Below are positions 4,349 to 32,905 of a stretch of DNA of 36,862 nt, one piece after another. Source of the stretch: Microcaldota archaeon (lineage in GTDB: Archaea; Micrarchaeota; Micrarchaeia; Anstonellales; Anstonellaceae); contig JAOAKE010000004.1 of NCBI GenBank assembly GCA_026413805.1, positions 1 to 36,862 of the forward strand. Reading direction: 5' to 3'. A model generated the notes under the pieces. That model was given only the letters and a program-made list of their open reading frames with translations. It was not told the origin of the DNA and did no database searches. How positions within the stretch are numbered: position 1 is the stretch's first letter; every line of letters begins with the position of its first letter. The position numbers were made by a program, and so were the translations under genes.

Positions 4349-4978
4349 ATGAAGCGGTGCGGGTTCATCTTCTCACTGGACGCCTTTGTCGCATTCACAA
4401 TAATTACAATCACAGTCAGCCTCCTTATATTCATAATCGGGGTGCCAAAGGGCTACTATTCCATGCTGGAGCAAGCCCACCTTCTCTCATTTGACTGCCT
4501 GCAGGTCCTTTCTACCTCTTCTTTTTCAGGCTTTTCGCCGCCCACCTACCTGGACATAATTCTTTCAAATTCGCCGGGCCACCCCCTTTCAAGTGAGATA
4601 ATGAGAAACATTGTTGGAGGCAGCACAAATGTCTCGCGCAGGCCAATAATTCCAAAGGGATATGGGTTTGTTTTGGAAGACTTTGACTTCTCCACTGACA
4701 GCTGGAGGGTCCTTTACAATTCATCAGCAGACCCGCTTTCAGACCGTTTTGGAAAAGCCTATTCCAAGCTGCAAGCGTCATCAACAATCTTTGTCTCATC
4801 TTACAGCGTGCCTCCCTCTCCTGGAGAGTCCATGTATTGCTATATTTCTTGCAAGGGATACCAGCCAGACGGGTCTTATCGCTCCACTTGTGATGTTACC
4901 CCGTGCAGCAGGCCACTTGATAACTTCGGTGTAGGCGCAAACTCCCTTCACCTAGTCAAGCTCACAGTATTTGCGTGA
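4349..4978 (+). CDS. Pilin-like secreted protein (N-terminal 'FIFSLDAFVAF' hydrophobic helix)
   Basis: 'MKRCGFIFSLDAFVAFTIITITVSLLIFIIGV' short basic N-terminus plus single hydrophobic helix. Confidence 0.6.
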   Translation: MKRCGFIFSLDAFVAFTIITITVSLLIFIIGVPKGYYSMLEQAHLLSFDCLQVLSTSSFSGFSPPTYLDIILSNSPGHPLSSEIMRNIVGGSTNVSRRPIIPKGYGFVLEDFDFSTDSWRVLYNSSADPLSDRFGKAYSKLQASSTIFVSSYSVPPSPGESMYCYISCKGYQPDGSYRSTCDVTPCSRPLDNFGVGANSLHLVKLTVFA

Positions 4979-4982
4979 TATT

Positions 4983-6641
4983 ATGAAGAATTCAAGCAGC
5001 AGGAAAGGATTTTTATTTACTCTTCTTGCGCTCTCCATCCTGGGCTTTATCCTCATGGTCATGCCTATTTGGATTGCCACCTTTGAAAAGGCAGACCAGC
5101 GGGCAGCAGCCAGATTCAAAGGGGAGGCAATGCGCTCCCTCTTTCATGCAATTTCCGATGAAACCTTTTCTGATTTTGCAAACGCCTCCTCATTTTTTGC
5201 CCTGCGAAAGCTTACCTTGTATGCCTCCAATGTCTCCACCCCGCTTCCGTGGAAGGATTCAGCTGCAACAGACCCGCGCAATCCCCACACCGATGCAGTT
5301 GCGGAAAGCATCCTCTCATTGGTTTTGGAAGGGAATGCCACCCCCACATCTGTTCCGTTGGTTTATTCTGATGAGGAAAAGAACGCCTACACCTTTAAGG
5401 CTTGGAAGGACAGGGTTGCCAAAGCAGTAAACATGATGGGTTTCAACATCTCCTTTTCAGACCTTAAGAACTTCTCCTTCCGCCAAAGAGATGAATGGAC
5501 TGTTGAAGCCTATTTTGAAATGGAGATGAACATAAGCGATTTTGAAAAAACCATGCGCCAGTCCAAGAGGCTTCGCGCAAACGTCTCCTTTCCAATAAAC
5601 GGTTTTCGCGATGCCATGGTTTCAAGGATGGACGCTGTCCAGAGGTGCAATTCAGGGAGTTTGTGCACTAACTTTGTAGAACGACAGATATTCCGCAATG
5701 ACCAATATCCCTCGCCTGCGAGCTTGCAGCCAGTCTTGCTTAGCAGGCCGCCGCGCGCTGTTGGGGGAGGGGCAGGCTGGTTCTATGGCCCTATTACAAG
5801 CCTTTACCCATATGAAATGGAAATAGACCAGCTTGCCAACATCTCAAGCTACATCCTTGTAAGAAGCTGGGATGAAAACCTCACCAATTATGCCAACCTA
5901 TACGGAGGAATAATCATTACCAACCTGCCATCGGAAATTACTTACAATGTCACAGAAGGGAGCTGCGAGTACAACATTACTGAGCAAACACGCTGCATCA
6001 ACTGCATAAGGCGCTACACCTCAAACATGCCGGGCTGTGCTGCCAGGGTTGAGCTTGTTCCTGCCACCATAATAAACAGGCCTTTCTTGGAAATAGGCGG
6101 CTCAGATTGGATAAACGAAATAAGGGCGGTGCGCCGGGCAGGCCTTCCTGACGAGCGGTATGTCCTTATAGAAAACCAATATTCCCTGCCTGAGCAAAAG
6201 CTTGAGGGACACCACAGGCTGTGGGACTTAAGCAGCATTAGGGATGTTTTAATGTGCGGCTTTTATGTGAAAGGCAAAGGCCCCTCTTTCTTCCAGAGAA
6301 TGCTAGCAGATGCACAAAACATCAACAACCCTGCCCTTGGTATTGAAAGCTTTGTAGTAGGGACATGGGCGGGCGGGAGCGAAGACAGCAGCTACTCCAG
6401 CCCGCCACAGGATGCTTCCCATGAAACCTTCTCTCGGCTGGACTGGGAATTTTACAGGCGGTGGTCAGGCGAAAAGATAAAGGGCATGCCTGGCTGCAAG
6501 AGCCGCGAGATGTGCGGAAGCCCGGACAACAATGCCACCAAGCTCGGAGTGGGAAGGTTCACCCTTACAACCGATTCTATCGCAAGATATGGGCTGGGAG
6601 AGCTCTCATGCACAAAATATCCCCAAGCAGGATGCAGCTGA
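4983..6641 (+). CDS. Membrane-anchored secreted protein in pilin-like cluster
   Basis: 'MKNSSSRKGFLFTLLALSILGFILMVMPIW' N-terminal helix, long Cys-containing ectodomain; overlaps the 4349-4978 gene if a TTG start at 4971 is used. Confidence 0.65.
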   Translation: MKNSSSRKGFLFTLLALSILGFILMVMPIWIATFEKADQRAAARFKGEAMRSLFHAISDETFSDFANASSFFALRKLTLYASNVSTPLPWKDSAATDPRNPHTDAVAESILSLVLEGNATPTSVPLVYSDEEKNAYTFKAWKDRVAKAVNMMGFNISFSDLKNFSFRQRDEWTVEAYFEMEMNISDFEKTMRQSKRLRANVSFPINGFRDAMVSRMDAVQRCNSGSLCTNFVERQIFRNDQYPSPASLQPVLLSRPPRAVGGGAGWFYGPITSLYPYEMEIDQLANISSYILVRSWDENLTNYANLYGGIIITNLPSEITYNVTEGSCEYNITEQTRCINCIRRYTSNMPGCAARVELVPATIINRPFLEIGGSDWINEIRAVRRAGLPDERYVLIENQYSLPEQKLEGHHRLWDLSSIRDVLMCGFYVKGKGPSFFQRMLADAQNINNPALGIESFVVGTWAGGSEDSSYSSPPQDASHETFSRLDWEFYRRWSGEKIKGMPGCKSREMCGSPDNNATKLGVGRFTLTTDSIARYGLGELSCTKYPQAGCS

Positions 6642-13930: not shown

Positions 13931-15133
13931 ATGTCTGAAAAACCATCTGCAATTGAAAGAGGGGAATATATAATCGGAATCGCAATAATCCTAGCGGCGC
14001 TTTTTGTCTCTGCCACAATATACATTTCAATGGCAGATGTAAAGACCGCCATTTATTCTGCAAAAATCCAGCAGGGGCAGCTTCCAGGCGCCCAAGTGCA
14101 GCAAAACAATTCCTCTACTGCCGAGCTTAAAGTGATAGTCATAAATGACAAAAGATGCACCGACTGCCAAGACCGAGCCGAATTTCTAATTGCACAAATT
14201 CGCTCTTTGTTCCCTGATGCAAAACTGGAAAAATACGATTACTCCGATGCCGAAGGAAAAAAAATCTACTCTGAAATTGGCGGCAAGGAGAAAATCCCCC
14301 TCGTTCTTTTTACCCCTGCAGTAAAAGACAGCGATTCCTACTCAAACGTAGCTGCCTACCTTGTCAAGAAGGGGAACTATTTCATGCTCCGAGTTGGCTC
14401 AGAGTTTGACCCAACAGCAGAGATTTGCGGAAACGGGATTGATGACGACTCCAACGGCGCTGCTGACTGCAACGACCCTGCTTGCTCTACCCACATAAGC
14501 TGCATGCCAAAGCTTGACAAGCCAGTAGTTGAGCTTTTTGTGATGAGCCACTGCCCATACGGCACGCAGATGGAAAAGGGGATGCTGCCAGTCATTGACT
14601 TGCTTGGCAACAAAGTGGACTGGAACATCCGGTTTGTGTCTTATGCAATGCATGGGGAAACCGAGGTGCGCGAGCAGCAGCTCCAATACTGCATCCAAAA
14701 ATATAGTAAAAGCAAGTACTTTGAGTACCTCCGCTGCTTCCTCAACTCCAGCAAGACAGAGGAGTGCCTTGCAGCAACCGGGCTTTCACGCTCTCAATTC
14801 CAAAAATGCTATGACGAGGCAGACAAGAAGTTCAACATAACTGCCATCCTCAATGACCGATCCTCTTGGCTGAACGGGGTGTACCCTAAATTTAACATAG
14901 ATGCAGAGCTAAATGAGAAATACGGAGTGGGAGGCTCGCCAACCTTTGTAATAAACGGCATTGTCAATGAGGGGCAAGGAAGGGACCCGGCAAGCATCCT
15001 GCAGACTGTTTGCTTGGGCTTCAAGGTCAAGCCACCCGAGTGCGACCGGCAGCTTTCAACACAATCATATACACCTGGCTTTGGGTTTGAGTTTCAGTCA
15101 ACAGGGGCAATAGCAGCAGGAAGCTGCGGCTAG
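13931..15133 (+). CDS. Membrane-anchored DsbA-family/thioredoxin-like protein
   Basis: N-terminal TM, Cys pair 'NDKRCTDCQDRAEF', DsbA-like 'PVVELFVMSHCPYGTQMEKG' and cis-Pro-like 'GVGGSPTFVING'. Confidence 0.8.
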   Translation: MSEKPSAIERGEYIIGIAIILAALFVSATIYISMADVKTAIYSAKIQQGQLPGAQVQQNNSSTAELKVIVINDKRCTDCQDRAEFLIAQIRSLFPDAKLEKYDYSDAEGKKIYSEIGGKEKIPLVLFTPAVKDSDSYSNVAAYLVKKGNYFMLRVGSEFDPTAEICGNGIDDDSNGAADCNDPACSTHISCMPKLDKPVVELFVMSHCPYGTQMEKGMLPVIDLLGNKVDWNIRFVSYAMHGETEVREQQLQYCIQKYSKSKYFEYLRCFLNSSKTEECLAATGLSRSQFQKCYDEADKKFNITAILNDRSSWLNGVYPKFNIDAELNEKYGVGGSPTFVINGIVNEGQGRDPASILQTVCLGFKVKPPECDRQLSTQSYTPGFGFEFQSTGAIAAGSCG

Positions 15134-15136
15134 CTG

Positions 15137-15664
15137 GTGTGCCGATTGAATGGGCTTTCAGGAAAGGCAGTCTATCTTGCCATTGCAGCGTTAGTCCTTG
15201 TGGCGCTGCTTGTCCTTGCTGTTTATTGGGCAGCAGGCAGCAGCCCAGAGGAAAAAGAGCCGATCAGCATCAACCAGCCAAGCCCTGGGGAGGGCGGCGG
15301 AAAGGAAAGCGCAAAGCAGCCTGCCTCAAAGCAACAAGGCGAGCCAGAGGTGGTGCTTGAATTTCTCTACGCTGACTGGTGCCCCCACTGCCAGAAAATG
15401 AAGCCCATAGTCCAAAAGATTGCAGGCGAGATGCCATCAGAGAGGCTTAAGATAGTCTATTGGAGAGATGAAGATGTGCAAAAAGACCGCGCCACTTACG
15501 ACCGGTTTTCCTACTACCGCCAAAAGGGCATTTTTGTTGGCTTTCCGACATTTGTAATAAACAATGGCGAAGACTACCTTGCAGGAGAAGTGAGCGAGCC
15601 TTATTTTCGCGACTGGCTCTGCAGACATTTCTCCAGCCCAAAGCCAGAAAAATGCAATTCATAA
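15137..15664 (+). CDS. Membrane-anchored thioredoxin-like protein
   Basis: Signal anchor then 'VVLEFLYADWCPHCQKMKPIVQKIAGEM' (CPHC) and 'VGFPTFVINNGEDYLAGE'. Confidence 0.85.
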   Translation: MCRLNGLSGKAVYLAIAALVLVALLVLAVYWAAGSSPEEKEPISINQPSPGEGGGKESAKQPASKQQGEPEVVLEFLYADWCPHCQKMKPIVQKIAGEMPSERLKIVYWRDEDVQKDRATYDRFSYYRQKGIFVGFPTFVINNGEDYLAGEVSEPYFRDWLCRHFSSPKPEKCNS

Positions 15665-15722
15665 GGCAGCCACTTTAAAGTAGTGTTTTTTATTCTTTAT
15701 TTCCGCTTTACTTCTTGGTTTT

Positions 15723-16613
15723 ATGCCAAAAAAGAGAAAAAAGAGGCAAACAGCGCAACCAGTAGGGCAAAAAGCAAAGCCGCCTATTCAAGCTAAAAAC
15801 GCGCCCCCTCCGCGTGCATTCTTTTTCTTTCTTGCAGCATTTGCCATCATTGCCTTGGCACTTTTTGCAGCTTGGATGATGGTGGGCAAGCCACCTGAAA
15901 AAAGCGACGCGCCCAATGGCACAAAGGCCAAAGATGAGCCGCCAACCCTCTCAACTGCGCCGCATTACCAGCTTTCTGCTTCTTCCTTTGACTCTGCTTA
16001 TGCGCGGGGAAGCCCGAACGCAGAAATAATCCTTGTTGAATACTGCGATTTTGAGTGCCGATTCTGCCAAGCCGCTTCTTCTACCCTCTCCTCTCTCCAA
16101 AAAAGCAACCCCAATGTGAAGGTCGTCTATAGGCACTATCCTGTAAAGGGCCATTCATTCTCCCAAAAGGCCGCAGAGGCAGCAGAATGCTCTGGAGAGC
16201 AGGGGAAATTCTGGGAGATGCACGACCTGCTGTTTGAAAACCAAAATGACCTTGCCCCCTCCTCCCTCAAAAAATATGCAGAAAAAATAGGATTGGACCT
16301 AGCGAGATTCAATTCTTGCCTTGAATCAGGAAAATACCAAGAGCTTGTTTCTTCGCAGGCAGCAGAAGGGAGGAAGGTTGGGATTTCGGCAACCCCTGCA
16401 TTCATTGTATTTTCCAAAGGCACAAAAGACCCTGCGCTGGAGGCAAGGCTGCTGGAAAAGGCACAGGAGGTCTCCTCCCAATATCCCACCTATGAATTGG
16501 GCATGCAGCTAGTCTCAATCAATGGCGCAAGGGGGGCCTTGCTGTTCTTTGGGGCGCTGCCCCAGTCAGACTTTGAAAAGATAATGGAAGCATTTCAAAA
16601 AAGGGCAAGCTAG
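15723..16613 (+). CDS. Membrane-anchored DsbA-family thioredoxin (thioredoxin_4)
   Basis: 'GSPNAEIILVEYCDFECRFCQAASSTL', 'VVYRHYPVKGHSFSQKAAEAAECSGEQGKFWEMHDLLFENQ', 'VGISATPAFIV'. Confidence 0.9.
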   Translation: MPKKRKKRQTAQPVGQKAKPPIQAKNAPPPRAFFFFLAAFAIIALALFAAWMMVGKPPEKSDAPNGTKAKDEPPTLSTAPHYQLSASSFDSAYARGSPNAEIILVEYCDFECRFCQAASSTLSSLQKSNPNVKVVYRHYPVKGHSFSQKAAEAAECSGEQGKFWEMHDLLFENQNDLAPSSLKKYAEKIGLDLARFNSCLESGKYQELVSSQAAEGRKVGISATPAFIVFSKGTKDPALEARLLEKAQEVSSQYPTYELGMQLVSINGARGALLFFGALPQSDFEKIMEAFQKRAS

Positions 16614-18076: not shown

Positions 18077-20116
18077 CTAATCATCCTTCCATATTTTGAC
18101 TTGCCCTTCTTCGCCGCTGCCTTCATCTTCTTCAGTGGCTCCCCTGTTTTTTCTCCTCTTGCGTGCGTAGAGGTGCAGCGCAAAGGCAGCGGCAATGATT
18201 CCTGTAAGGCCAACCATGACCAATATGGCTGAGACTGCAACTGACAATGACTGCGCCTCAGCCATCTTTATCCGGGCTGATGAAATTGCCTCGAGGGCCA
18301 TCTTGGATGCAGCCTCTGGCTCAGAATATGCAAGCTCCTCCGCATCGCCCATTTTTTTCTTTTCTTTTGAAAAGTCAGGCCGAATAAGGGGCGACTTTGA
18401 GGAGTAGTTGGCCAGCTCTTGCTTGAAGGCAGATATGTTTTTCAAAGCCTCTTCTATCGCAGGCACTATCTCCTCAAGTCTTTTTTCATAAGAGGAGATT
18501 TCAAGCTCTGCAATTCCAAGCGAGCGGTTTGCCCCCGCGTAATCTCCGCCTGCCATTGAAGAGTTTGCTGCCAAAAGGGCTTCCATCGCAGAGCTGAGGT
18601 TTATCCTCTGGCGGAACATGGCAGCCTTTCCTTCTAACTCGCCTGCACGCTTGTTAAGGAGCTCCATCCTTTGCTCTATCCATGAAGAAACCAGCGCAGT
18701 GTCAGTTGCGTTTTTGGCAGCCTGCTCTTTCTGTGCAGCCGAAATGTATTTTTCTGCCATGCTTGAAAGGGAAGGCAAAAGGCCTATTGCTTCGCTGTAA
18801 TACTTGCTTTCAGCCTTGTTTTTGATTTCTGCAGCCAGCCTGTCAAATTCTGGCAGCTGCCCCAAAAGGCCCGCAGAAAGGTTTTTTCGGCGGTAAGGCT
18901 CTACTTTTTCCTGCTCCGCCTTTACCATCTGCTTTATTTTTACCTCTATCTTCTGGGAAAGGTTAAGCTTTGCCTCGTTTGCAGATTCAATTGCCTTGCT
19001 TGCAAGCCTTTCGGCAGCAGAAAAGGCAAATCGCGAATACTCTTCTTTAGCTGCAACCACATGTGCTGCAAGGTAGCTGTAGTCCTCCACAGTCATGTTG
19101 AGCTTCAAAGCCAGCTGCTGCATGCTATAAAGCTTTTTTACCGAATCATTTGCTTGCGAAATCAGGGCCAATACCTCTTTTTTTCCCTCAACCTCTTTGA
19201 TTTGGTAAACCAGCACCTTTTTTGCTTGAGGGTCTGCCAAGTAGAGCTTTCCATCATATATTGAAAGGTCCTCTGGCTCAGAGAGGTTGCCGCCAGAAAC
19301 GTTTGAATCAAGCACATCTGCCAAATAGCCCTCCAAAGTGAAAACAAGCACCTTTTTAGCGTAAGCATCTGCCACATAAATAAAATCATTGTATATTGCC
19401 ATCCCCCGAGGAGACGACAGCCCTCCTTCCCCTCCCCCAATTGAGTAAAGGAAGGTGAAATTCCTGCTGTAGGCATATATTGCTTTTTTGCCCCGGTCTA
19501 GCACAAACACCTTGTCCTTGTAAATCTCAACGTCTGCTGGCATGTTCAGAAAGCCATCTGAAGGCCCTCTTTCGACCGCAATCCTTTCAAAGGTGCGAGT
19601 CTCTTTTGAATAAACATACAGCCGCCCATTTTCCATGTCAGTAATGTAGGCGTGTTCATTGTCAAAAGCAATTGCAGAGGGCCGTTTTAGGTTGGAAGAC
19701 TCCTTGCGGTTCCACAGCTCTATGGCCCGCCCCTCCCCGGGGTAAAAGCGTATGATGGTGCTGACGCCGTCTGCGATATAAACGCTCCCATTGTAGTAAG
19801 TCATTTTATGGGGGCTTTCAAGCTGGACATATTCTGCGCTGTTTTTCAAGAACAATTTGCGCGGGCTGGCATTTTCACTTTCGTTGTAGTAGCCGCTTGA
19901 GTTGAAGATGTAAAACGCATTGGTGAGGTCGTCTGCTACATATAATTTGCCTCCAGCCGCAAGAACGCTGCTTGGGTGCCTAAACAAATACGTCTCGTCA
20001 GTGTCTTCAAAATTCGTCCCATTGAAATACCCAAGGTAGCTAAATCCTGCGAATATGCTGCTTGAAAAAACAAGAAGCAATGCCAGTAGCCTGCAATATC
20101 GCACTTGCTTCACCAA
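18077..20116 (-). CDS. Secreted NHL-repeat beta-propeller with C-terminal coiled coil and TM anchor
   Basis: Repeated 'LSSPRGMAIYNDFIYVADAYAKKVLVFTLEG'-type units, signal-like N-terminus, terminal TM followed by 'YARKRRKNRG'. Confidence 0.8.
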   Translation of the reverse strand: MVKQVRYCRLLALLLVFSSSIFAGFSYLGYFNGTNFEDTDETYLFRHPSSVLAAGGKLYVADDLTNAFYIFNSSGYYNESENASPRKLFLKNSAEYVQLESPHKMTYYNGSVYIADGVSTIIRFYPGEGRAIELWNRKESSNLKRPSAIAFDNEHAYITDMENGRLYVYSKETRTFERIAVERGPSDGFLNMPADVEIYKDKVFVLDRGKKAIYAYSRNFTFLYSIGGGEGGLSSPRGMAIYNDFIYVADAYAKKVLVFTLEGYLADVLDSNVSGGNLSEPEDLSIYDGKLYLADPQAKKVLVYQIKEVEGKKEVLALISQANDSVKKLYSMQQLALKLNMTVEDYSYLAAHVVAAKEEYSRFAFSAAERLASKAIESANEAKLNLSQKIEVKIKQMVKAEQEKVEPYRRKNLSAGLLGQLPEFDRLAAEIKNKAESKYYSEAIGLLPSLSSMAEKYISAAQKEQAAKNATDTALVSSWIEQRMELLNKRAGELEGKAAMFRQRINLSSAMEALLAANSSMAGGDYAGANRSLGIAELEISSYEKRLEEIVPAIEEALKNISAFKQELANYSSKSPLIRPDFSKEKKKMGDAEELAYSEPEAASKMALEAISSARIKMAEAQSLSVAVSAILVMVGLTGIIAAAFALHLYARKRRKNRGATEEDEGSGEEGQVKIWKDD

Positions 20117-21599: not shown

Positions 21600-22919
21600 A
21601 TGGCAGTTTCGCCTTTGGAAGGCAGATACAAAACAGAAATGAACGAGCTTTTTGATGAAGAGGCAAAGCTTGCCTCTCGGCTTGAGGTAGAAGTAGCGCT
21701 GGCATATGCGCACGCCGAGCTTAAAAACATCCCTGTGGAAGCTGCCGAAGAAATAGCCTCTGCGGCAAAAAAGGTGAGCTTAAAGCGGGTAGATGAAATT
21801 GAGGCTGAAATCCACCACGACCTAATGGCGATGGTGAAGGCTCTTTCAGAGAACTGCAAAAAATACGGCGGCTATGTCCATTATGGGGCAACATCATACG
21901 ACATTGAGGATACTGCGACTGCCCTGCTTTTAAAGCGGGCCCTCGGGCTGGTAAGAAAGCGCCTGTTGGAGACACAAGGCATACTCAAAAGGCATGCGCA
22001 GCAGCACAAGGAGACAGTCTGCATAGCGCGGACACACGGCCAGCACGCAGTCCCTACAACCTACGGAATGAAGTTTGCCCTGTGGTTTGCAGAAATCGGC
22101 CGCCACCTTGAGCGGCTTGAGCAGGCAGAAAAAACAATTTCAGTCGGCAAGATGTCAGGCGCAGCAGGCACCATGGCAACCTTCCAAGGCAAAGGCACGA
22201 AAATCCAAGGCCTTGTCATGAAGAGGCTTGGGCTTGAGCCAGCGCCAATCACCAACCAAGTAATACAGCGCGACAGGCACGCGCAGGTTCTTTTTGCCCT
22301 AGCCCTGATAGCCTCCACCCTTGAAAAGATAGCAAAAGAAATCCGCAATTTGCAGCGCACAGAGATAATGGAAGTGGCAGAGCCATTTGCCTCAAAGCAG
22401 GTCGGCTCCTCTACCATGCCGCAGAAGCGCAACCCTCACAAGTCCGAAAGGGTATGCTCCCTTGCGCGCCTTGTAAGGGCAAACGTAGCAGTTGCACTTG
22501 AAAACATAGCGCTTGAGCACGAGCGGGACCTGACCAATTCAGCAAACGAGCGGTTTATCTTTGCCCAGAGCTTCATCCTGACAGATTACATGCTGAAAGA
22601 GACAAACAAAATACTCTCGGGATTGGAATTTTTCCCCGAAAACATCGCGCGCAACTTGGAGCTGACAGGCGGCGCAGTCATGGCTGAAAAGATAATGATT
22701 GAGCTTACCGAGCGCGGGATGGGGAGGCAGGAGGCCCACGAGCTTATGCGAAGGTGCAGCCTGGAGGCCTTCAAAAACAAGAAAAAGCTCATTGAAGTGC
22801 TAAAAGAGCAAGAAGAGGTCCGGAAATTCATCCCAGTTGGCGAGCTTGAAAAGATGTTTAACCCGCGAAACTACATAGGCGAGGCAGTGCAGATAGTGGA
22901 GCGGGTTGTCGGAAAGTAA
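21600..22919 (+). CDS. purB: Adenylosuccinate lyase
   Basis: 'SPLEGRYKTEMNELFDEEAKLASRLEVEVALA', 'YVHYGATSYDIEDTATALLLKRAL', signature 'GSSTMPQKRNPHKSE'. Confidence 0.97.
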   Translation: MAVSPLEGRYKTEMNELFDEEAKLASRLEVEVALAYAHAELKNIPVEAAEEIASAAKKVSLKRVDEIEAEIHHDLMAMVKALSENCKKYGGYVHYGATSYDIEDTATALLLKRALGLVRKRLLETQGILKRHAQQHKETVCIARTHGQHAVPTTYGMKFALWFAEIGRHLERLEQAEKTISVGKMSGAAGTMATFQGKGTKIQGLVMKRLGLEPAPITNQVIQRDRHAQVLFALALIASTLEKIAKEIRNLQRTEIMEVAEPFASKQVGSSTMPQKRNPHKSERVCSLARLVRANVAVALENIALEHERDLTNSANERFIFAQSFILTDYMLKETNKILSGLEFFPENIARNLELTGGAVMAEKIMIELTERGMGRQEAHELMRRCSLEAFKNKKKLIEVLKEQEEVRKFIPVGELEKMFNPRNYIGEAVQIVERVVGK

Positions 22920-22941: not shown

Positions 22942-24186
22942 ATGAACAGGCTAAACTCAACTGACCCGGACATTTACCACTTCATAAAAATGGAGCTTCA
23001 GCGCCAGAGGGATGGGCTGGAGCTGATTCCATCTGAGAATTTCTGCTCGCTTGCCGTGATGGAGGCGCAGGGGAGCGTGCTTACAAACAAATACTCTGAA
23101 GGCTACCCAGGCAAGCGCTACTATGGAGGCAACCAGTTTGTTGATGAGTGCGAGCGGCTTGCCATTGAGCGCGCAAAGCAGCTTTTTCACGCCGACCATG
23201 CCAATGTCCAGCCGCATGCAGGCTCTCAGGCAAACATGGCAGTCTATTTTGCCCTTCTCCAGCCAGGGGACAAGATAATGGGGCTGAACCTTTCCCATGG
23301 CGGGCACCTGACCCATGGCTCGCCTGTCAATTTCTCAGGGAAGGTCTACAAGATAATCCCATACAACGTCCATCCACAGACCCACCTTCTTGATTACGAC
23401 GCAATTGAAAAGCAGGCAAAAGAAGAGAAGCCGCAGCTTATTGTAGCTGGCTTCACCGCCTACCCGCGCCAGGTCGATTTCAAGAGATTTGCAGAAATTG
23501 CAGAAGCCTCAGACTCCTATTTGATGGTGGATATGGCGCACATCGCAGGCCTTATTGCAGGAGGCCAGCACCCCCACCCATTCCCTCATGCAGATGTAGT
23601 TACAACTACCACCCACAAGACACTTCGCGGGCCGCGGGGTGCGATGATTCTTTGCAAAGAGGAATATGCACAGCTTATTGACAAGGCAGTGTTTCCTGGG
23701 CTTCAGGGCGGGCCATTTGACCATGCAATTGCCGCCAAGGCAGTCTGCCTCAAAGAGGCAATGCAGCCTGAATTTTCAGATTATGCCCGCCGGATAGTTG
23801 AAAATGCCCGTGCCCTTGCAGATTCCCTCATTGAAGAGGGAATGACGCTGATTTCAGGAGGGACAGACACCCACCTTTTGCTTGTTGACTTGAGGAACAT
23901 GGGAATAACTGGGAAAGAGGCGCAGCTTGCACTGGAAGAGGCGAACATAACTGTGAATAAGAACACCATCCCATATGACCCCCAATCGCCATTTGTAACA
24001 AGCGGTATTCGCCTTGGCACTCCAGCCCTCACCACCCGCGGGATGGGGAAAAGCGAGATGCAGCAAATCGGAAAGATGATAAAGAAAGTGTGTGCCGCAC
24101 CTTCTGATGCTTCACTGAAGGCAAGGGTGCGAGAAGAAGTGCTGGAACTTACCAAGAGGTTCCCGCTTTATCCGGAGCTTGGTTAG
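22942..24186 (+). CDS. glyA: Serine hydroxymethyltransferase
   Basis: '[46 protein letters not shown]', '[22 protein letters not shown]'. Confidence 0.98.
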
Positions 24187-24260
24187 ATGGGGCCTACAAA
24201 CAAGCCAGAGCCAAGATGGGCAAAATGGACGCCAAAATAAAAAGGCAAAAAGGTGTTCTA

Positions 24261-25100
24261 ATGCCGCACGTAGTCAATGGCAATTCACTTGCCGATTCCA
24301 TACTGGAAAAGGCCAAGGGGCAAATTGCCTCATTTTCCCGCCCGCCATGCCTTGCAATAGTGATGGTGGGCAACAACCCTGCCTCGCAAGTCTATGTCCG
24401 CAGGAAAGAAGAGGCCTGCAAGAAGGTTGGGATAAAGACAAAAAACATCCACCTGCCTTCCTCTGCAACAGAGGGCGAGGTAATGGAGCAAATCCTTGCG
24501 CTCAACTCGGATTCATCAGTTGATGCCATACTTGTTCAGCTTCCCCTCCCGCCCCATATTGACGAAGAAAGGGTGCTTTGCCAAATATCCCCAAAAAAGG
24601 ATGTTGATGGCTTCCACCCAGAGAATTTTGGAAGGGCAGCCCTCGGCACAGGCCAGCTGCTTCCTTGCACGCCAAAAGGAGTCCTCCATATCCTAAAAGA
24701 AAGCAAGATAGGGTTGGCTGGAAAGCACGCAGTGATAGTGGGAAGAAGCCGAATAGTTGGAAAGCCGCTTGCCTTCCTTTTGCTAAATGAAGACTGCACA
24801 GTTACCATTTGCCACAGCAAGACCAAGAACCTAAAAGAAGTGGCGCGGCAGGCAGACATACTCTGCGTTGCTGTCGGCAAGCCGAGAACCATAACAGCAG
24901 AGATGGTAAAAGAAGGCGCAGCAGTCATTGACATCGGGATAAACCGGGAGGGCGAAAAGCTCGTAGGCGATGTAGATTTTGAAGGAGTAAAGGGCAAGGC
25001 ATCCATTATCACTCCTGTCCCAGGCGGGGTAGGGCCAATGACTGTTGCCATGCTGATTGAAAACACCCTATTGTGCTACAAGCTTCAAGGCGGAAAGTGA
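24261..25100 (+). CDS. folD: Methylenetetrahydrofolate dehydrogenase/cyclohydrolase
   Basis: 'AIVMVGNNPASQVYVRRKEEACKKVGI', 'LVQLPLPPHIDEERVL', 'PKKDVDGFHPENFG', 'VIVGRSRIVGKPLA', 'TPVPGGVGPMTVAMLIENT'. Confidence 0.97.
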   Translation: MPHVVNGNSLADSILEKAKGQIASFSRPPCLAIVMVGNNPASQVYVRRKEEACKKVGIKTKNIHLPSSATEGEVMEQILALNSDSSVDAILVQLPLPPHIDEERVLCQISPKKDVDGFHPENFGRAALGTGQLLPCTPKGVLHILKESKIGLAGKHAVIVGRSRIVGKPLAFLLLNEDCTVTICHSKTKNLKEVARQADILCVAVGKPRTITAEMVKEGAAVIDIGINREGEKLVGDVDFEGVKGKASIITPVPGGVGPMTVAMLIENTLLCYKLQGGK

Positions 25101-25106
25101 GGCACA

Positions 25107-26375
25107 ATGTCTTCTTATCAAAAGGCGCTAAAAGGTCTCTATTCCCTTGACAAGTTTGGAAGCCAGCTGGGGTTGGAAAGAATAAGGCACCTGCTTGAAG
25201 CCCTCGGCCATCCTGAGCGGAAATACAAATGCGTTGTTGTTGGCGGAAGCAACGGGAAGGGCTCAACTGTAGAGATGCTGGGAAGCATCCTTCAGCAAGC
25301 TGGTTTTAAGGTAGGGACGTATTTTTCCCCGCAAATTGAGGAGTTCCCAGAAAGGATAAGGGTGAATGGAAAGAATGCTTCAAATGAGGAAATCGCCGAG
25401 GCATACTACAAGGTTGCAGATGTTTGCGCAAAAAGGTCAATCCAGGCAACCTTCTTTGAAGTTGCCACTGCCATGGCACTGTGCGTGTTTGAAAAGCAAG
25501 GGGTTGATTTTGCAGTGCTTGAGGTAGGGCTTGGCGGCAGGCTGGATGCCACCAATGCAGTTGAGCCTTCAGTTTCTTGCATAGCCTCAATCTCGCTTGA
25601 GCACACGCACATACTGGGCGACACTGAGGAGAAAATAGCGCTTGAAAAATGTGGGATAGCGCGAAAGGGGAAGCCCCTTGTAGTCGGGCAGGTAAATGGC
25701 ATTGTGAAAAAAACCATTGAGTCTCGCTGTGCAGAAATTCTGGCAAAGCCGATATTTGTCTCCGAATCTGCGGAGGTTTCTTCAATTAAAAAGTCAGGAT
25801 TTAACTACTCATTCAAGGTGAAGACCAAAAAAGAAAGCTACTCTGTTTTCCTTGGGGCTCCCGGCAGGTTCCAGATAAACAATGCATTGGTTGCCTTGCT
25901 GGCAGCAGAGGCGCTGGGAGTGAAAAAAGCCGCGATTGAAAAAGGGCTTGCCCTTGCAGTGCCAAAATACCGCTTTGAGCTAATCTCCCGCTCCCCCAAG
26001 GTCTTTGCAGACTGCTGCCACAACCCTGGGGCTGCCTTTGCCCTTGTTTCAGAATTGAGGCAGCTTAGAGGTAAAAAGGTTCTTCTTTTTTCTGCCATGG
26101 CTGACAAAGACTATGCTCGGGTGCTGGACATACTCGGCCCATTTTTTGGCAAGGTTGTGCTCACTCAGACTTCCCTGCCGAGGGCCGCCAGGCTTGGAGA
26201 CTTGAAGGCAGCGGCTTCCCACCACAGCCTGCCTTTTGTCGCAGTGAAGAAGCCTTCGCTTGCGCTAAAAGAGGCAAAAAGGCTTGCAGGCAAAAATGGA
26301 ACGGTAGTAATTGCCGGCTCTATTTACCTGTTGGGTGAGCTTTTCGGCAAAGATAAAATAAGGATTGCACAATAA
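25107..26375 (+). CDS. folC: Folylpolyglutamate/dihydrofolate synthase family ligase
   Basis: 'VVVGGSNGKGSTVEMLGSILQQAGFKVGTYFSPQIEEFPERIRVNG', 'VLEVGLGGRLDATNAVEP', 'LEHTHILGDTEEKIALEKCGI'. Confidence 0.95.
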   Translation: MSSYQKALKGLYSLDKFGSQLGLERIRHLLEALGHPERKYKCVVVGGSNGKGSTVEMLGSILQQAGFKVGTYFSPQIEEFPERIRVNGKNASNEEIAEAYYKVADVCAKRSIQATFFEVATAMALCVFEKQGVDFAVLEVGLGGRLDATNAVEPSVSCIASISLEHTHILGDTEEKIALEKCGIARKGKPLVVGQVNGIVKKTIESRCAEILAKPIFVSESAEVSSIKKSGFNYSFKVKTKKESYSVFLGAPGRFQINNALVALLAAEALGVKKAAIEKGLALAVPKYRFELISRSPKVFADCCHNPGAAFALVSELRQLRGKKVLLFSAMADKDYARVLDILGPFFGKVVLTQTSLPRAARLGDLKAAASHHSLPFVAVKKPSLALKEAKRLAGKNGTVVIAGSIYLLGELFGKDKIRIAQ

Positions 26376-26390: not shown

Positions 26391-27587
26391 ATGAAGTCGC
26401 AGATACGAAGAGAAATGATGCAGAAGCGCGATGCCCACCATTCCTCAGGCGGGCACATTCACTGCCTCAATATAATGGAGCGCTTTGTCCAGCTGCCAGA
26501 ATTTGAAAAGGCAAGCTGCATGCTGCTTTATGCCTCAAAGGGAAGCGAAGTGCACAGCGATTTTATAATCCGCTCCGCCCTTTCTCTTGGAAAATGCGTT
26601 GTCTTGCCCCGCACCATAAAGGAGGAAAAAAGGCTGGAGCTCTACCGCATAGAATCCATAGAAGAGCTTTCGCCAGGGGCATTCGGGATATTGGAGCCGC
26701 CCCCCCTGCCTGAAAGAAAGGTAAGCCCTGACGAGGTGGACTTGGCAGTAGTCCCCGGCGTGTGCTTTGACAGGAGAGGCCATAGGCTCGGCTACGGAAT
26801 GGGGTATTACGACTCCCTTCTTGGGAAGCTACGCTGCAAAAAAATAGGGCTTGCCTATGACATGCAGCTTGTGGAAAAAATACCTGAAGAGCCTCACGAC
26901 ATTGCAGTAGACATGATTGTTACAGAGAGGGAAGTTATCCACTGCTCCAGCACAGCAGGAGGCAAAAGGAAATTTCGCATAGTGGTCCTTGCCTCTGGGC
27001 GCGGAAGCGATTTCCAGTCAATAATAGATGCCAACAAAAGGGGGGAAATAGACGTGGAGATCGCAGGCTTGATTACTGACAACCCCCAGGCAAAGGCAAT
27101 TGAGCGGGCAAAGGAAAACAACATTCCTGCCTTTGCAATTGAATGGGCGACCCGCGAAGAGCTGGACAGGAAGATAAAGGAAAAACTTGACGAGCTTTCG
27201 CCTGATTTGGTGGTGCTTGCAGGCTACATGAAAATAATCAAAAGCAAGGAGCTGCTTTCTGCTTACCAAGGCAAAATAATCAACATACATCCCTCCCTTC
27301 TTCCAAAATACCCAGGCGCACATGCGCAAAGGGATGCATTTGAGGCAGGCGAGAAGGTTTCAGGCTATACCATTCACTTTGTAGATGAGTCCCTTGATGG
27401 CGGCCCGATAATCTACCAAGAGGAAGTGGACATATCTGATTGCAAGACATGGGAGGAGGCAGCAGCCAAAATACTTTCGCGCGAGCATGTCGGGTTGCCA
27501 AAGGTAGTCGGGATGGCTTCGCGAGGCGAATTCTGGCTGGAAGGAAAAAAAGTGGTCTTTAAGCCTAACAAGGCATCTTCTTTATAA
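26391..27587 (+). CDS. Fusion: 5-formyltetrahydrofolate cyclo-ligase (N-term) + phosphoribosylglycinamide formyltransferase (C-term)
   Basis: N-terminal MTHFS 'VDLAVVPGVCFDRRGHRLGYGMGYYDSLL'; C-terminal PurN 'FRIVVLASGRGSDFQSIIDANKRGEIDVEIAGLITDNPQAKAIERA', 'LVVLAGYMKIIKSKELLSAYQGKIINIHPSLLPKYPG', 'GYTIHFVDESLDGGPIIYQE'. Single uninterrupted ORF. Confidence 0.93.
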   Translation: MKSQIRREMMQKRDAHHSSGGHIHCLNIMERFVQLPEFEKASCMLLYASKGSEVHSDFIIRSALSLGKCVVLPRTIKEEKRLELYRIESIEELSPGAFGILEPPPLPERKVSPDEVDLAVVPGVCFDRRGHRLGYGMGYYDSLLGKLRCKKIGLAYDMQLVEKIPEEPHDIAVDMIVTEREVIHCSSTAGGKRKFRIVVLASGRGSDFQSIIDANKRGEIDVEIAGLITDNPQAKAIERAKENNIPAFAIEWATREELDRKIKEKLDELSPDLVVLAGYMKIIKSKELLSAYQGKIINIHPSLLPKYPGAHAQRDAFEAGEKVSGYTIHFVDESLDGGPIIYQEEVDISDCKTWEEAAAKILSREHVGLPKVVGMASRGEFWLEGKKVVFKPNKASSL

Positions 27588-27627: not shown

Positions 27628-28248
27628 ATGCTGGATAAAATAGTAGGTTGGCTAAAAAGGCTTTTTATGAGGAAAAAGAGTGTTTCCCTCGGGATATACG
27701 GCTCGCCCAATGTCGGAAAGACCACCCTTGCAAACAGGATATGCGTGGATTTAGTCGGGGAGCCAATGGGCGCCATAAGCCCAATCCCCCATGAGACAAG
27801 GGTGGTGCAAAAAAAGGACAAGGTTTCACTAAAGCTGCACGGCTATACCCTCACCATGAGCCTCCTTGACATGCCAGGCATAGCTGTAAAGGTAGATTAC
27901 CGCGACTTTTTAGGCTATGGGCTTTCCAAGGAAGAGGCACAGAAGAGAGCGCGCGAGGCAACCCGCGGCGTTGTAGAGGCAGTCCGGCACATGGATAAGG
28001 TAGACGCCGCACTGTTCATAATAGATGCTACGCAGGACCCATACACCCAGGCAAACATAACCATTCTTGGAAACATGGAAGCGAGGGGCATTCCAGTGAT
28101 AATAGTCGCCAACAAAATAGACCTGCCTGAAGCAAATGTCTCGCGGGTAAAAGAGGCATTCCCTGGCTACAACTTTGTTGAAGTCTCTGCAATGACTGGC
28201 GAAAACATTGACAAGCTATACAGCGAAATCGTCCAAAAACTCACCTGA
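27628..28248 (+). CDS. Era/Der-like small GTPase
   Basis: G1 'GIYGSPNVGKTTL', G3 'LLDMPG', G4 'VANKIDLP', G5-like 'VSAMTGENI'. Confidence 0.92.
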   Translation: MLDKIVGWLKRLFMRKKSVSLGIYGSPNVGKTTLANRICVDLVGEPMGAISPIPHETRVVQKKDKVSLKLHGYTLTMSLLDMPGIAVKVDYRDFLGYGLSKEEAQKRAREATRGVVEAVRHMDKVDAALFIIDATQDPYTQANITILGNMEARGIPVIIVANKIDLPEANVSRVKEAFPGYNFVEVSAMTGENIDKLYSEIVQKLT

Positions 28249-28264: not shown

Positions 28265-28741
28265 ATGCACAAGTGCGCAAGGTGTGGCAAAACCGTTAAC
28301 TCACTTGAAGAGGTAAGCAATGGCTGTTCTTGCGGCTCAAAAATATTTGTGTTTGACAAGGAGGCAATCAGCGCCCAAAAAGAGCTTGAATGGAGAGAGG
28401 TATCTCCTCCATGGGCGGGGCTTCCGCCAGAATATGCAAAAAATGAAGGCAGCAGCGGGAAAAGCCAGCAGGCTGAGGCCGACGTCTCAAAGGCAGAGGG
28501 CGACGGCCGGCCGCCCCCCTCCTACTTTGCGCGGGCAACCTTCACTTCCGAGGATGTTGAAAACATAAAAATACTTGGGGAGGGAGTTTTCCTGCTGGAC
28601 ATAAAGGCAATCTCAAACGAGCCGCTGGTAATAAAAGACGAGGAAGAAGTCTATTATATCCGCCTTCCTTTTGAAAACAATTTGAGGATAGTCAGCCCCC
28701 AATCAAAAGACGAGGGGCAAAAAGCAAAACCAGGCCAATAG
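28265..28741 (+). CDS. Archaeal Zn-ribbon protein
   Basis: 'MHKCARCGKTVNSLEEVSNGCSCGSKIFVF' zinc ribbon; C-terminal 'VENIKILGEGVFLLDIKAI'; immediately downstream of the GTPase. Confidence 0.85.
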   Translation: MHKCARCGKTVNSLEEVSNGCSCGSKIFVFDKEAISAQKELEWREVSPPWAGLPPEYAKNEGSSGKSQQAEADVSKAEGDGRPPPSYFARATFTSEDVENIKILGEGVFLLDIKAISNEPLVIKDEEEVYYIRLPFENNLRIVSPQSKDEGQKAKPGQ

Positions 28742-29942
28742 CAATCAGTATCAATGCCCCAATGGCATGCCCCCATGAAGCTATCTTGTCCCCAAGCGCC
28801 CCGCCAGCTGCAAAGAAGGCAAGCAAGAATACTGCTATGTCGTCAATCATGTAAAGGAAGCAATAAACCAACACATAGCCATAGGTCTGCCACCATGGAA
28901 GGTTCTGCAAGGCAAGGACTTGGGTAAATACCACTGGAATCGCAGAAGAGCACACAAATTCTATTGAATTGACTGTGAATGCCAGAAGGACTATGCCTGC
29001 AAAGGTTGCCAAGGTAAGCGGCTGGTGCAGGATGCCTTTTGCTTCCTTCTTTATCTTTGACTTCTGGGCAATGTCACCAACTTGGCAGGCAATCTGCCCC
29101 CTGTTTTTTACAAACTCCCGCAGTGACAGCACACCCCACCATATTGCAATCGCGCCGACTATCACCATCACTATTCTTGCATATCCGACGAACATGAATG
29201 CATTTAGCCAAGCAGTCATAATCAGGAAATAAAGCGCGCCTTCTGCAAACAGGAAAGTCCCAACCACCAACAAAAAGCGCTTTCTATCGTGCAATGTCAG
29301 GGCTATTGATATCAAGTAAACAAGTATCCACATGGCGCATGGGTTGAAGCCGTCAATAAACCCAAGTATGATTGCAAGGGAAAGCAAAGAGTGCTGCCTT
29401 AAGTCAAACTCCCCGATAAATGGCAGGTTTATTACTCCCGTTCTCGGCTGCGCTGGTTTTCTTTCCCCGTCACTTTCTGTCCTGTTCCCTCCGAGCCCTT
29501 CCTCTATTGCCTTTCTTATCATTTCAGGGGTGGTCTTTGAGTCAAACCCAACAATTATTGTGTCGTTTATTATTGTGGTCGGAGTGCCTGTCGGCTTTGC
29601 GCCTCTCTCCTTTAGCATCTGTTCCATCAAGCGGGCTTCCTTTTCATGTGTAATGTCGTGGTAAACCCAGCGTGCCTTTGGGTATTCCTCTGCAATTTTT
29701 TGGTTGTAATCCACTTGCTCTTTGCAGTGCGGGCAGGCAGGGTGGTAAAAAAAATGGACCTCGATTGCCGCCTCGCCAGCACCAAATTGTTGCGGTGAAA
29801 TTGGGCCTGCCACAGGCCCAAAAACGAAAGAATAAAGCGCAAGAATGACAGCAAGCAGTGTTATGAACCTGTTGAACGGCTCTGCAAGGAATTCGCCTGC
29901 CTTTTTTGCCAATTCTGAAAAAACTCTGCTGCCAAAATTCAT
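28692..29942 (-). CDS. Thioredoxin-like domain fused to CcdA/DsbD-like membrane domain
   Basis: 'IEVHFFYHPACPHCKEQVDYNQ' and 'GTPTTIINDTIIVGF' followed by multipass region 'GFIDGFNPCAMWILVYLISIAL', 'VNSIEFVCSSAIPVVFT'. Confidence 0.88.
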   Translation of the reverse strand: MNFGSRVFSELAKKAGEFLAEPFNRFITLLAVILALYSFVFGPVAGPISPQQFGAGEAAIEVHFFYHPACPHCKEQVDYNQKIAEEYPKARWVYHDITHEKEARLMEQMLKERGAKPTGTPTTIINDTIIVGFDSKTTPEMIRKAIEEGLGGNRTESDGERKPAQPRTGVINLPFIGEFDLRQHSLLSLAIILGFIDGFNPCAMWILVYLISIALTLHDRKRFLLVVGTFLFAEGALYFLIMTAWLNAFMFVGYARIVMVIVGAIAIWWGVLSLREFVKNRGQIACQVGDIAQKSKIKKEAKGILHQPLTLATFAGIVLLAFTVNSIEFVCSSAIPVVFTQVLALQNLPWWQTYGYVLVYCFLYMIDDIAVFLLAFFAAGGALGDKIASWGHAIGALILIAIGLVLLFAPRLLIGG

Positions 29943-30693: not shown

Positions 30694-31500
30694 ATGGCGC
30701 GCATTCGCGAAAAGGTTCGGCTATTTTACGAGAGGCATCCCTACCCTTCCCAAAAAGTAAATTCAAGAGAAGACCTGTTGCATTCGCTTCACTCAAAGGT
30801 GATGGAAAAAATTCTTGCAGCCGCAGGCCTTTCTCTAAAATCGCTGGAAGGCATGCGTGTGCTTGATGCAGGCTGCGGGACAGGGGAAAAGGCAGTCTTT
30901 TGCTCTTTGCTTGGCGCCAAGGCAGATGCCTTTGACATCTCTTGCACTTCAATAAGCGAGGCAAGGAAGCTTGCCGCCAAGCTCTCTGCACCCGTGCATT
31001 TCCAGGTAGCTTCATTTGAGGGAGTGCGCCTGAAGCAAGAATATGACCTTATCTTGTGCATAGGCTCGCTCCATCACACTGAAAACCCAAAAAAGAACTT
31101 CATGAAGGTTGCGGGTTTTCTCAAGCCAGGAGGCTTCATAGTATTGGGGCTTTACAACTTATACGGCAGGCTTGCCTTCAGGCTTTACCGCAGCCTCTTG
31201 TGGCTCGGGGAAAAAGACCCAGAGAGCATAATCAAAAAAACAGGCATCTTCAAAGAAAAAGACAGGCACAGGTACAGCATTCTTGCTGACCGCCTTGCTT
31301 CCCCACATGAGACCTACCACTCGGTAGAAGAGGTTCTTGGCTGGTTTTCAGAGGCAGGCATTTTGCCAATTGCATCTGAGCCGCCAGTCAGGCTCACTTC
31401 CAAGCCTCACATCCTATTTTCTCAGCTTTGCTGGCTTGCAAAAAGGAGGGGATTCTTTTTTATCGGCGGCAGAAAGCAGCTGCCAAACCCGCCAAAATAA
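30694..31500 (+). CDS. Class I SAM-dependent methyltransferase
   Basis: 'FYERHPYPSQ', motif I 'VLDAGCGTGEKAVF', 'YDLILCIGSLHHTENPKKNFMKVAGFLKPGGFIVLGLYN'. Confidence 0.9.
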   Translation: MARIREKVRLFYERHPYPSQKVNSREDLLHSLHSKVMEKILAAAGLSLKSLEGMRVLDAGCGTGEKAVFCSLLGAKADAFDISCTSISEARKLAAKLSAPVHFQVASFEGVRLKQEYDLILCIGSLHHTENPKKNFMKVAGFLKPGGFIVLGLYNLYGRLAFRLYRSLLWLGEKDPESIIKKTGIFKEKDRHRYSILADRLASPHETYHSVEEVLGWFSEAGILPIASEPPVRLTSKPHILFSQLCWLAKRRGFFFIGGRKQLPNPPK

Positions 31501-32905
31501 GCATTGCAGAGGCGCAAGCAGGCGGTATCCAGTCCTCTCTTCGCACTGGTTGTGCCGTGTTGCCAGCCTCCCTGCTTTCGTTTTGCCCCCTTTCCTCCAG
31601 CTTAAGGCTTATCTCTTCGTTTAGCTTGCTCCTTATCTTGACAGCTTCATTCTCCATCTCAGAAATCTCTTCAAGGGAGGGCACAGCTGCTGCACCTGCC
31701 TCTAAAAGGGCAATTTCTTGCCTGTAGGCTTCTGCACTCTCATTTCCAATTAGCCATTCTGCGCCATCCACCTTTCTTTTGAGGGCGCCTATGCTCTTGT
31801 TCAGGCCAATTAGCCTATCTTTGCCAGAAGTCATCCTCGCCGATAGCCTGTCCCTGAGCGCCTCAAACTCCTTTCCTGCTGCAAGCGCCTTGCGGTATTC
31901 CCCTGCATCCGCATGCCGCTCTATTTTGGAGGACAGGTTGGAAAGGTTGGCCAGCTCCTCTTCTGCAATAGGGTCTTCCACAAGCAAAGAGAATGCCCCG
32001 AAGCTTCGGTTAAGGCTTCGCAAGTCAGACCACATCCTCATCTTTAATTCAGCGTATTCCCTCCCCCGCCTTGACAGGTAATCCTCATTTTCCAAGGTGT
32101 TTTTTACAATCGCCTGCGCGCGCGCAGCCTGTTTTGCTATCTCTTCGTTTGCCACGCGCAGCGCTTGCATTTCTTCAATTGCCCTTTCAATCCTCTTTGT
32201 GGAATAGTCTATTTTTGGGCAGTATTCATAGCACTTTTTTGCATCCTTTCCGCTGCACCCCTCATCAGTCCTGTTAAGAAAAAGTTGGTTCTTGCTCATA
32301 TTTATTGAGAGCTCGTGCAGCTCCTCAAGCAATTGCAGCTTGGATGAGGCTGCCTCATTGCTTTCAGCTATGCTATCAATATTTTCTGAATACTGCGACA
32401 CAAGAGAGCCAAACTTCTGCCTGTTTTCATTCCATTCCATAAACGCCTCTAAAAAGCCATCAGCATAAATTACGCCGCTGCACAGTGGCACAGAGAAGCA
32501 GCTTAATATGCAGCTTTCCTTGTCGCTGCAGGGCATCCTGTCTAGCCCAAGGAAAAGCATGCATTTTTTTTCATTCTCTTCTTTCGCTTTCAGGATTTCG
32601 CTGCCCAGCCCTGCAAGGGAGGAGGCCAGCTTCTCAAAGCCCTTCCTGTTTTTGGCATCTTCTTGCAGTATTTCTGTTGCAAGGGAAGTATTGTTAATGG
32701 CAGGCCCTCCGCTTCCACTTACGATATATGTCTCCACAGAGTCGGCAATTACAAGGTAGTAGTCCCCTTTGGAAAGCAGCTTCTGGTAGGAAACATTCTG
32801 GTCCGGCTCAAACGAATAATCAACAAATTTTTCAAGCGGGGTTTTTGCTGCCCATGCTAAGGAAAGCATGGCGAAGAAGCAGAAAAGCAAGAGTTTTCTT
32901 AGCAT
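31460..32905 (-). CDS. Secreted coiled-coil protein with C-terminal TM
   Basis: Signal-like N-terminus 'LRKLLLFCFFAMLSLAWA', long helical Glu/Lys-rich region, Cys-containing central part, terminal 'ASAMLILAGLAAAFCRR'. Confidence 0.7.
   Translation of the reverse strand: MLRKLLLFCFFAMLSLAWAAKTPLEKFVDYSFEPDQNVSYQKLLSKGDYYLVIADSVETYIVSGSGGPAINNTSLATEILQEDAKNRKGFEKLASSLAGLGSEILKAKEENEKKCMLFLGLDRMPCSDKESCILSCFSVPLCSGVIYADGFLEAFMEWNENRQKFGSLVSQYSENIDSIAESNEAASSKLQLLEELHELSINMSKNQLFLNRTDEGCSGKDAKKCYEYCPKIDYSTKRIERAIEEMQALRVANEEIAKQAARAQAIVKNTLENEDYLSRRGREYAELKMRMWSDLRSLNRSFGAFSLLVEDPIAEEELANLSNLSSKIERHADAGEYRKALAAGKEFEALRDRLSARMTSGKDRLIGLNKSIGALKRKVDGAEWLIGNESAEAYRQEIALLEAGAAAVPSLEEISEMENEAVKIRSKLNEEISLKLEERGQNESREAGNTAQPVRREDWIPPACASAMLILAGLAAAFCRR

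Follow-up and report, generated by a model that had tools for sequence, protein, structure and literature searches.

A single open reading frame (ORF) of a Micrarchaeota genome joins a full-length 5-formyl-THF cyclo-ligase (MTHFS) to a full-length GAR formyltransferase (PurN). Both enzymes are known, but their fusion is new and restricted to one lineage, and we infer, with a probability of about 0.8, that it represents a lineage-specific bifunctional enzyme. The ORF with its complete domains, the catalytic residues of PurN, the conservation across species, the gene order and the relatives with split genes are direct observations; both activities, the co-transcription and a benefit of the link are deduced from them. 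The window, i.e. the whole stretch of DNA that was analysed, covers 36,862 nucleotides of contig JAOAKE010000004.1. It belongs to an archaeal assembly (GCA_026413805.1) of 0.88 Mb in 63 contigs, about 93.5% complete, and the gene is known from draft, mostly metagenome-derived assemblies. The ORF extends from an ATG to a TAA through 398 codons with no internal stop (see table for coordinates).

Table. Gene neighbourhood of the fused ORF, with the parts of the fused protein
Feature	Coordinates	Strand	Basis	Remarks
purB, adenylosuccinate lyase	21600..22919	+	TIGR00928	upstream of glyA in most same-family relatives
glyA, serine hydroxymethyltransferase (SHMT)	22942..24186	+	NF000586	order conserved
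folD, methylene-THF dehydrogenase / methenyl-THF cyclohydrolase	24216..25100	+	Pfam, NCBIfam	order conserved; true start probably downstream of 24216
folC, folylpolyglutamate/dihydrofolate synthase	25107..26375	+	TIGR01499	15 bp upstream of the fusion; order conserved
Fused MTHFS + PurN ORF	26391..27587	+	Pfam, NCBIfam	398 aa; fusion also in 11 other genomes
MTHFS domain, residues 2-179	26394..26927	+	Pfam PF01812, TIGR02727, alignment, PDB 1sou/1ydm/2jcb, Foldseek	
Linker, about 12 residues (~184-194, HCSSTAGGKRK)	26940..26972	+	alignment, AlphaFold	
PurN domain, residues 196-373	26976..27509	+	Pfam PF00551, TIGR00639, alignment to E. coli 1c3e, Foldseek 3auf/2ywr	
Small GTPase-like gene	27628..28248	+	PF01926	directly downstream of the fusion; kept neighbour in two fused genera and in G012

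A preliminary description of this DNA, made from the letters alone, had proposed that one ORF contains a complete MTHFS followed by a complete PurN, joined by a very short linker. Both points hold, since each half gives full-length matches in Pfam and NCBIfam, in that order, and only about a dozen residues lie between the domains. In the N-terminal half, the Pfam 5-FTHF_cyc-lig profile is matched over its entire length (positions 1-186 of 186, E = 4.2e-39), and the NCBIfam equivalog TIGR02727 (MTHFS_bact) scores 158.7 bits against a cut-off of 84.9. This half carries the DRRGHRLGYGMGYYD motif; the family motif G-x-R-[LI]-G-x-G-x-G-Y-Y-D is matched by GHRLGYGMGYYD, together with K2 and R6 at the N-terminus. 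In an alignment of eight fused proteins, K2, R6, R132, G134, G136, G138, Y139, Y140 and D141 are invariant. Foldseek comparison with solved cyclo-ligases gave TMt values of 0.84-0.91, the value for 2jcb being 0.91. These matches confirm the N-terminal half as a 5-formyl-THF cyclo-ligase at the family level, with a predicted ATP-dependent activity. The C-terminal half covers positions 2-181 of the 181 of the Pfam Formyl_trans_N profile (E = 4.1e-54) and reaches 203.5 bits with the NCBIfam equivalog TIGR00639 (PurN; cut-off 150.1), while the rival formyltransferase profiles of NCBIfam stay below their cut-offs (119.3 against 286 for PurU, 74.4 against 201.5 for Fmt). Residues N298, H300 and D336 align with the catalytic N106, H108 and D144 of E. 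coli PurN (1c3e) and are invariant among the eight fused proteins. The assignment to PurN is likewise confirmed at the family level, and the predicted activity is the 10-formyl-THF-dependent formylation of GAR.

One could suspect that one of the two domains is degenerate and has been retained just as an appendage with a structural or regulatory role. The MTHFS domain indeed diverges faster than its partner (dN of 0.19 versus 0.11 for G000 compared with G004), and the genus has an M in the GYGxGYYD motif where the solved homologues 1sou, 1ydm and 2jcb have K or G. But both halves score above the equivalog cut-offs and retain their motifs, and both are under purifying selection, with a dN/dS of about 0.05-0.16 (NG86), a rough estimate because dS is near saturation in several pairs. 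Moreover, the fused ORF is the only MTHFS match and the only Formyl_trans_N protein found in its own genome, i.e. no second copy of either enzyme was detected; gene content was assessed by targeted searches, and an absent gene may sit in the missing part of the genome. We therefore consider a degenerate domain very improbable. One fused protein deviates: that of G006 (locus L009) lacks about 12 residues of PurN just before VVLAGYM, and on its contig folC is split between two ORFs. The gap and the broken folC may reflect either assembly error or decay, and, unless the gap is an assembly error, not every fused copy may need to be active in both domains.

A more trivial explanation would be that a sequencing or assembly artefact, by loss of a stop codon or by a frameshift, has merged two ORFs. 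The same in-frame junction is present, however, in 12 of 12 genomes from two genera (10 of 10 of the window's genus and the two sampled members of g6), which represent separate, independent assemblies with linkers of differing length and sequence. The copy of G001, though cut by a contig end, still spans the junction. A missed stop or frameshift, one of the two reservations of the preliminary description, is thus ruled out for all practical purposes. The alignment shows no conservation of the linker among the fused relatives, which differ freely in its length and sequence. It appears unlikely that PurN is also made on its own from an internal start: near the junction, the window's ORF offers just one in-frame start codon, a GTG within the first PurN strand, and comparison of the linkers revealed no conserved start codon common to the fused relatives.

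The fusion was found in 12 of the 301 Micrarchaeota genomes and in none of the other 289; the two genera that possess it differ by ~45% at the protein level. Five other apparent fusions (G013, G018, G084, G096 and G272) proved to be two ORFs parted by stop codons and merged by the search. Outside this phylum, 1,548 genomes were sampled from the five phyla to which a Diapherotrites, an Acetobacterium, a Deltaproteobacteria-labelled, a Nitrospirae and a Woesearchaeota genome belong, and none of them gave a match as strong as would be expected of two joined domains. Single-domain matches in such phyla have values of ~1e-30 to 1e-57, so that a fused pair, unless it had diverged strongly, would be expected to score better than 1e-64; taken alone, an empty search of this kind proves nothing. 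Among the best 80 loci of a wider contig search, one was fused (L021, from the same group) and one was a split relative (L022). No report of an MTHFS-PurN fusion was found in the open-access papers searched. As far as sampled, the fusion is rare and lineage-restricted, which we do not take to mean unique; a common architecture is ruled out within Micrarchaeota and in the samples of the five other phyla, in agreement with the initial impression that the architecture was not a standard one.

How the fusion arose is suggested by the relatives, in which the order purB-glyA-folD-folC-mthfs-purN is found with mthfs and purN as separate and usually adjacent genes; of 20 split pairs inspected, 13 consist of immediate neighbours. 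In three different lineages, only one stop codon separates the two genes, which share a reading frame: TAG in G018 (L126), TGA in G084 (L101) and TAG in G096 (L102). In G084 the ATG of purN immediately follows the stop, and in G029 the split genes overlap by a few bases. The same-frame pairs imply that a single substitution can be enough to produce a fusion, and the present one would most simply have arisen when mthfs and purN, already neighbours on the same strand in an old folate/purine operon of Micrarchaeota, lost the stop codon that separated them. Other arrangements were also met with. In G017 (L124), purN and the MTHFS gene lie on opposite strands, the sole such case in the 20 split pairs, and in genus g39 (L106 of G092, L108 of G089) purN comes after folC and no MTHFS gene was found between them. 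A single origin of the fusion seems likelier, two origins being possible: in the PurN tree all 12 fused sequences are on one side of a branch (92/89), while in the MTHFS tree the two genera, g1 and g6, are separated with weak support, and a single clade is not rejected (AU p = 0.48).

Such an origin raises the possibility that the fusion is neutral, the stop codon having been lost by chance between neighbours with no selection for the link. Both the existence, in other lineages, of adjacent pairs that are one substitution away from fusion and the lack of conservation of the linker speak for it. On the other hand, all sampled genomes of these two distant genera retain the link, and no reversion was seen. 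We give neutrality a substantial chance, though somewhat short of even. It should be noted that this explanation denies only the benefit of the tether; it is compatible with both domains being active and overlaps in that respect with the bifunctional enzyme that we favour.

What this bifunctional enzyme could do is best seen from its metabolic setting. 5-Formyl-THF is a by-product of SHMT that inhibits folate enzymes, and it is recycled by 5-FCL (PMC9426524). The N-terminal domain would convert this inhibitory compound, with ATP, into 5,10-methenyl-THF, from which FolD would form 10-formyl-THF; the C-terminal PurN would then use the latter to formylate GAR in purine synthesis. In this way, the MTHFS half would return 5-formyl-THF to the folate pool that feeds PurN. 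The product of MTHFS is 5,10-methenyl-THF, whereas the substrate of PurN is 10-formyl-THF. Since PurN cannot use what MTHFS releases, the FolD cyclohydrolase (or spontaneous hydrolysis) must act between the two halves, and FolD is encoded by a separate, unfused gene located two genes upstream. The simplest reading is that the halves act in the same pathway at non-consecutive steps. In the genome itself, a targeted search did not detect Fhs (formate-THF ligase) and found a PurH formyltransferase domain. Given this lack of Fhs and of any further Formyl_trans_N protein, formyl-folate appears, from gene content, to be derived from serine through GlyA and FolD and to be used only by PurN and PurH. 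A 2025 study of Micrarchaeota (PMC12892359) noted that de novo purine pathways are complete in several orders and, when discussing gene transfer, named purN as one of the purine genes; its main text nowhere uses the word 'fusion'.

A stronger version of the functional link would be channelling or delivery, in which folate stays bound to the MTHFS domain and passes as methenyl- or 10-formyl-THF directly to the tethered PurN. It would be the archaeal equivalent of the link proposed in mammals, where MTHFS is reported to be located with the purinosome and to be a tight binder of 10-formyl-THF, which it is proposed to channel (PMC6416297; PMC10758965, the latter citing Field et al. 2011). The fact that the gene pair is held together across Micrarchaeota and fused in two genera also argues in this direction. 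But the product of the first site is not the substrate of the second, as judged from the known chemistry of the assigned families, and the enzyme of the intervening cyclohydrolase step is unfused. The predicted structure, in which the preliminary description had suggested looking for channelling contacts, leaves the relative orientation of the halves undefined. AlphaFold produced two well-formed, rigid domains (mean pLDDT 93.1, pTM 0.60) with no predicted fixed packing, from an alignment of only 31 rows, with which a weak interface could be missed; the linker, free to vary between relatives, appears disordered, with a pLDDT <50 at residues 188-191. By Foldseek, each half matches its own family, and none of the PDB matches listed spans both halves. 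Physical channelling in the fused protein is thus unsupported by the model, and we regard direct hand-over as unlikely. It also seems quite unlikely that selection has made the fusion a working unit for MTHFS-to-GARFT delivery, in which the tethered MTHFS retains folate and supplies 10-formyl-THF to PurN; if true, this would provide, in minimal and covalent form, a model of the channel proposed for MTHFS and the mammalian purinosome. The initial proposal that the fusion couples recovery of 5-formyl-THF to purine formylation consequently survives in part. Its metabolic side is plausible in view of the operon (glyA, folD, folC, purB), the sole Formyl_trans_N protein and the mammalian literature, whereas a physical hand-over is not supported, given the intermediate FolD step and the lack of a fixed interface in the model. 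The main effect of the fusion in the bifunctional enzyme is probably to ensure that a folate-repair enzyme and a consumer of 10-formyl-THF are always expressed 1:1 and located together, rather than to form a molecular tunnel.

Each half has the full-length domain and the fold of a stand-alone enzyme: MTHFS, also known as 5-FCL or YgfA (PF01812, TIGR02727; 1sou, 1ydm, 2jcb), whose motif is shared, and PurN (PF00551, TIGR00639; E. coli 1c3e/1cde), whose catalytic N/H/D are shared. The difference is that here the cyclo-ligase forms the N-terminal half of a PurN fusion and PurN bears an extra N-terminal domain. Multifunctional proteins with PurN are not new. Human GART is a PurD-PurM-PurN trifunctional protein. 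PurN is likewise its C-terminal domain, but the partners in GART are enzymes of the purine pathway, whereas the partner here is a folate-recycling enzyme. Another example is provided by halobacteria, in which a PurN-PurH1 fusion is known (PMC3261824): this too is an archaeal PurN joined to a further protein of the folate-dependent purine pathway, but the partner is AICAR formyltransferase, i.e. another consumer of 10-formyl-THF rather than a folate-repair enzyme. The mammalian MTHFS-purinosome system similarly ties MTHFS to purine formylation, through a condition-dependent protein association and not, as here, through a covalent fusion. In mammals, MTHFS may either feed folate into the making of purines or do no more than clear away inhibitory 5-formyl-THF, and a review calls its full role 'somewhat elusive' (PMC10758965). 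The fusion of two genes is a good indication that their products cooperate. A natural MTHFS-PurN fusion that lies in an operon with the genes for SHMT, FolD and FolC, in a genome with neither Fhs nor another Formyl_trans_N protein detected, lends independent genomic support to the MTHFS-purine link. The fused ORF also offers a small recombinant protein suited to a direct test of folate delivery.

Elsewhere in the window, a 556-aa protein (4971-6641, + strand) has no Pfam match and a 481-aa protein (31460-32905, - strand) has no match in Pfam or NCBIfam, while a 679-aa protein (18077-20116, - strand) matches beta-propeller/NHL repeats that yield no definite assignment. Several thioredoxin/DsbA-like thiol-redox proteins are encoded at 28692-29942 (- strand) and 13931-16613 (+ strand), among them a membrane protein whose N-terminus resembles thioredoxin and a weak GILT-like match, a set that suggests a disulfide-forming system.
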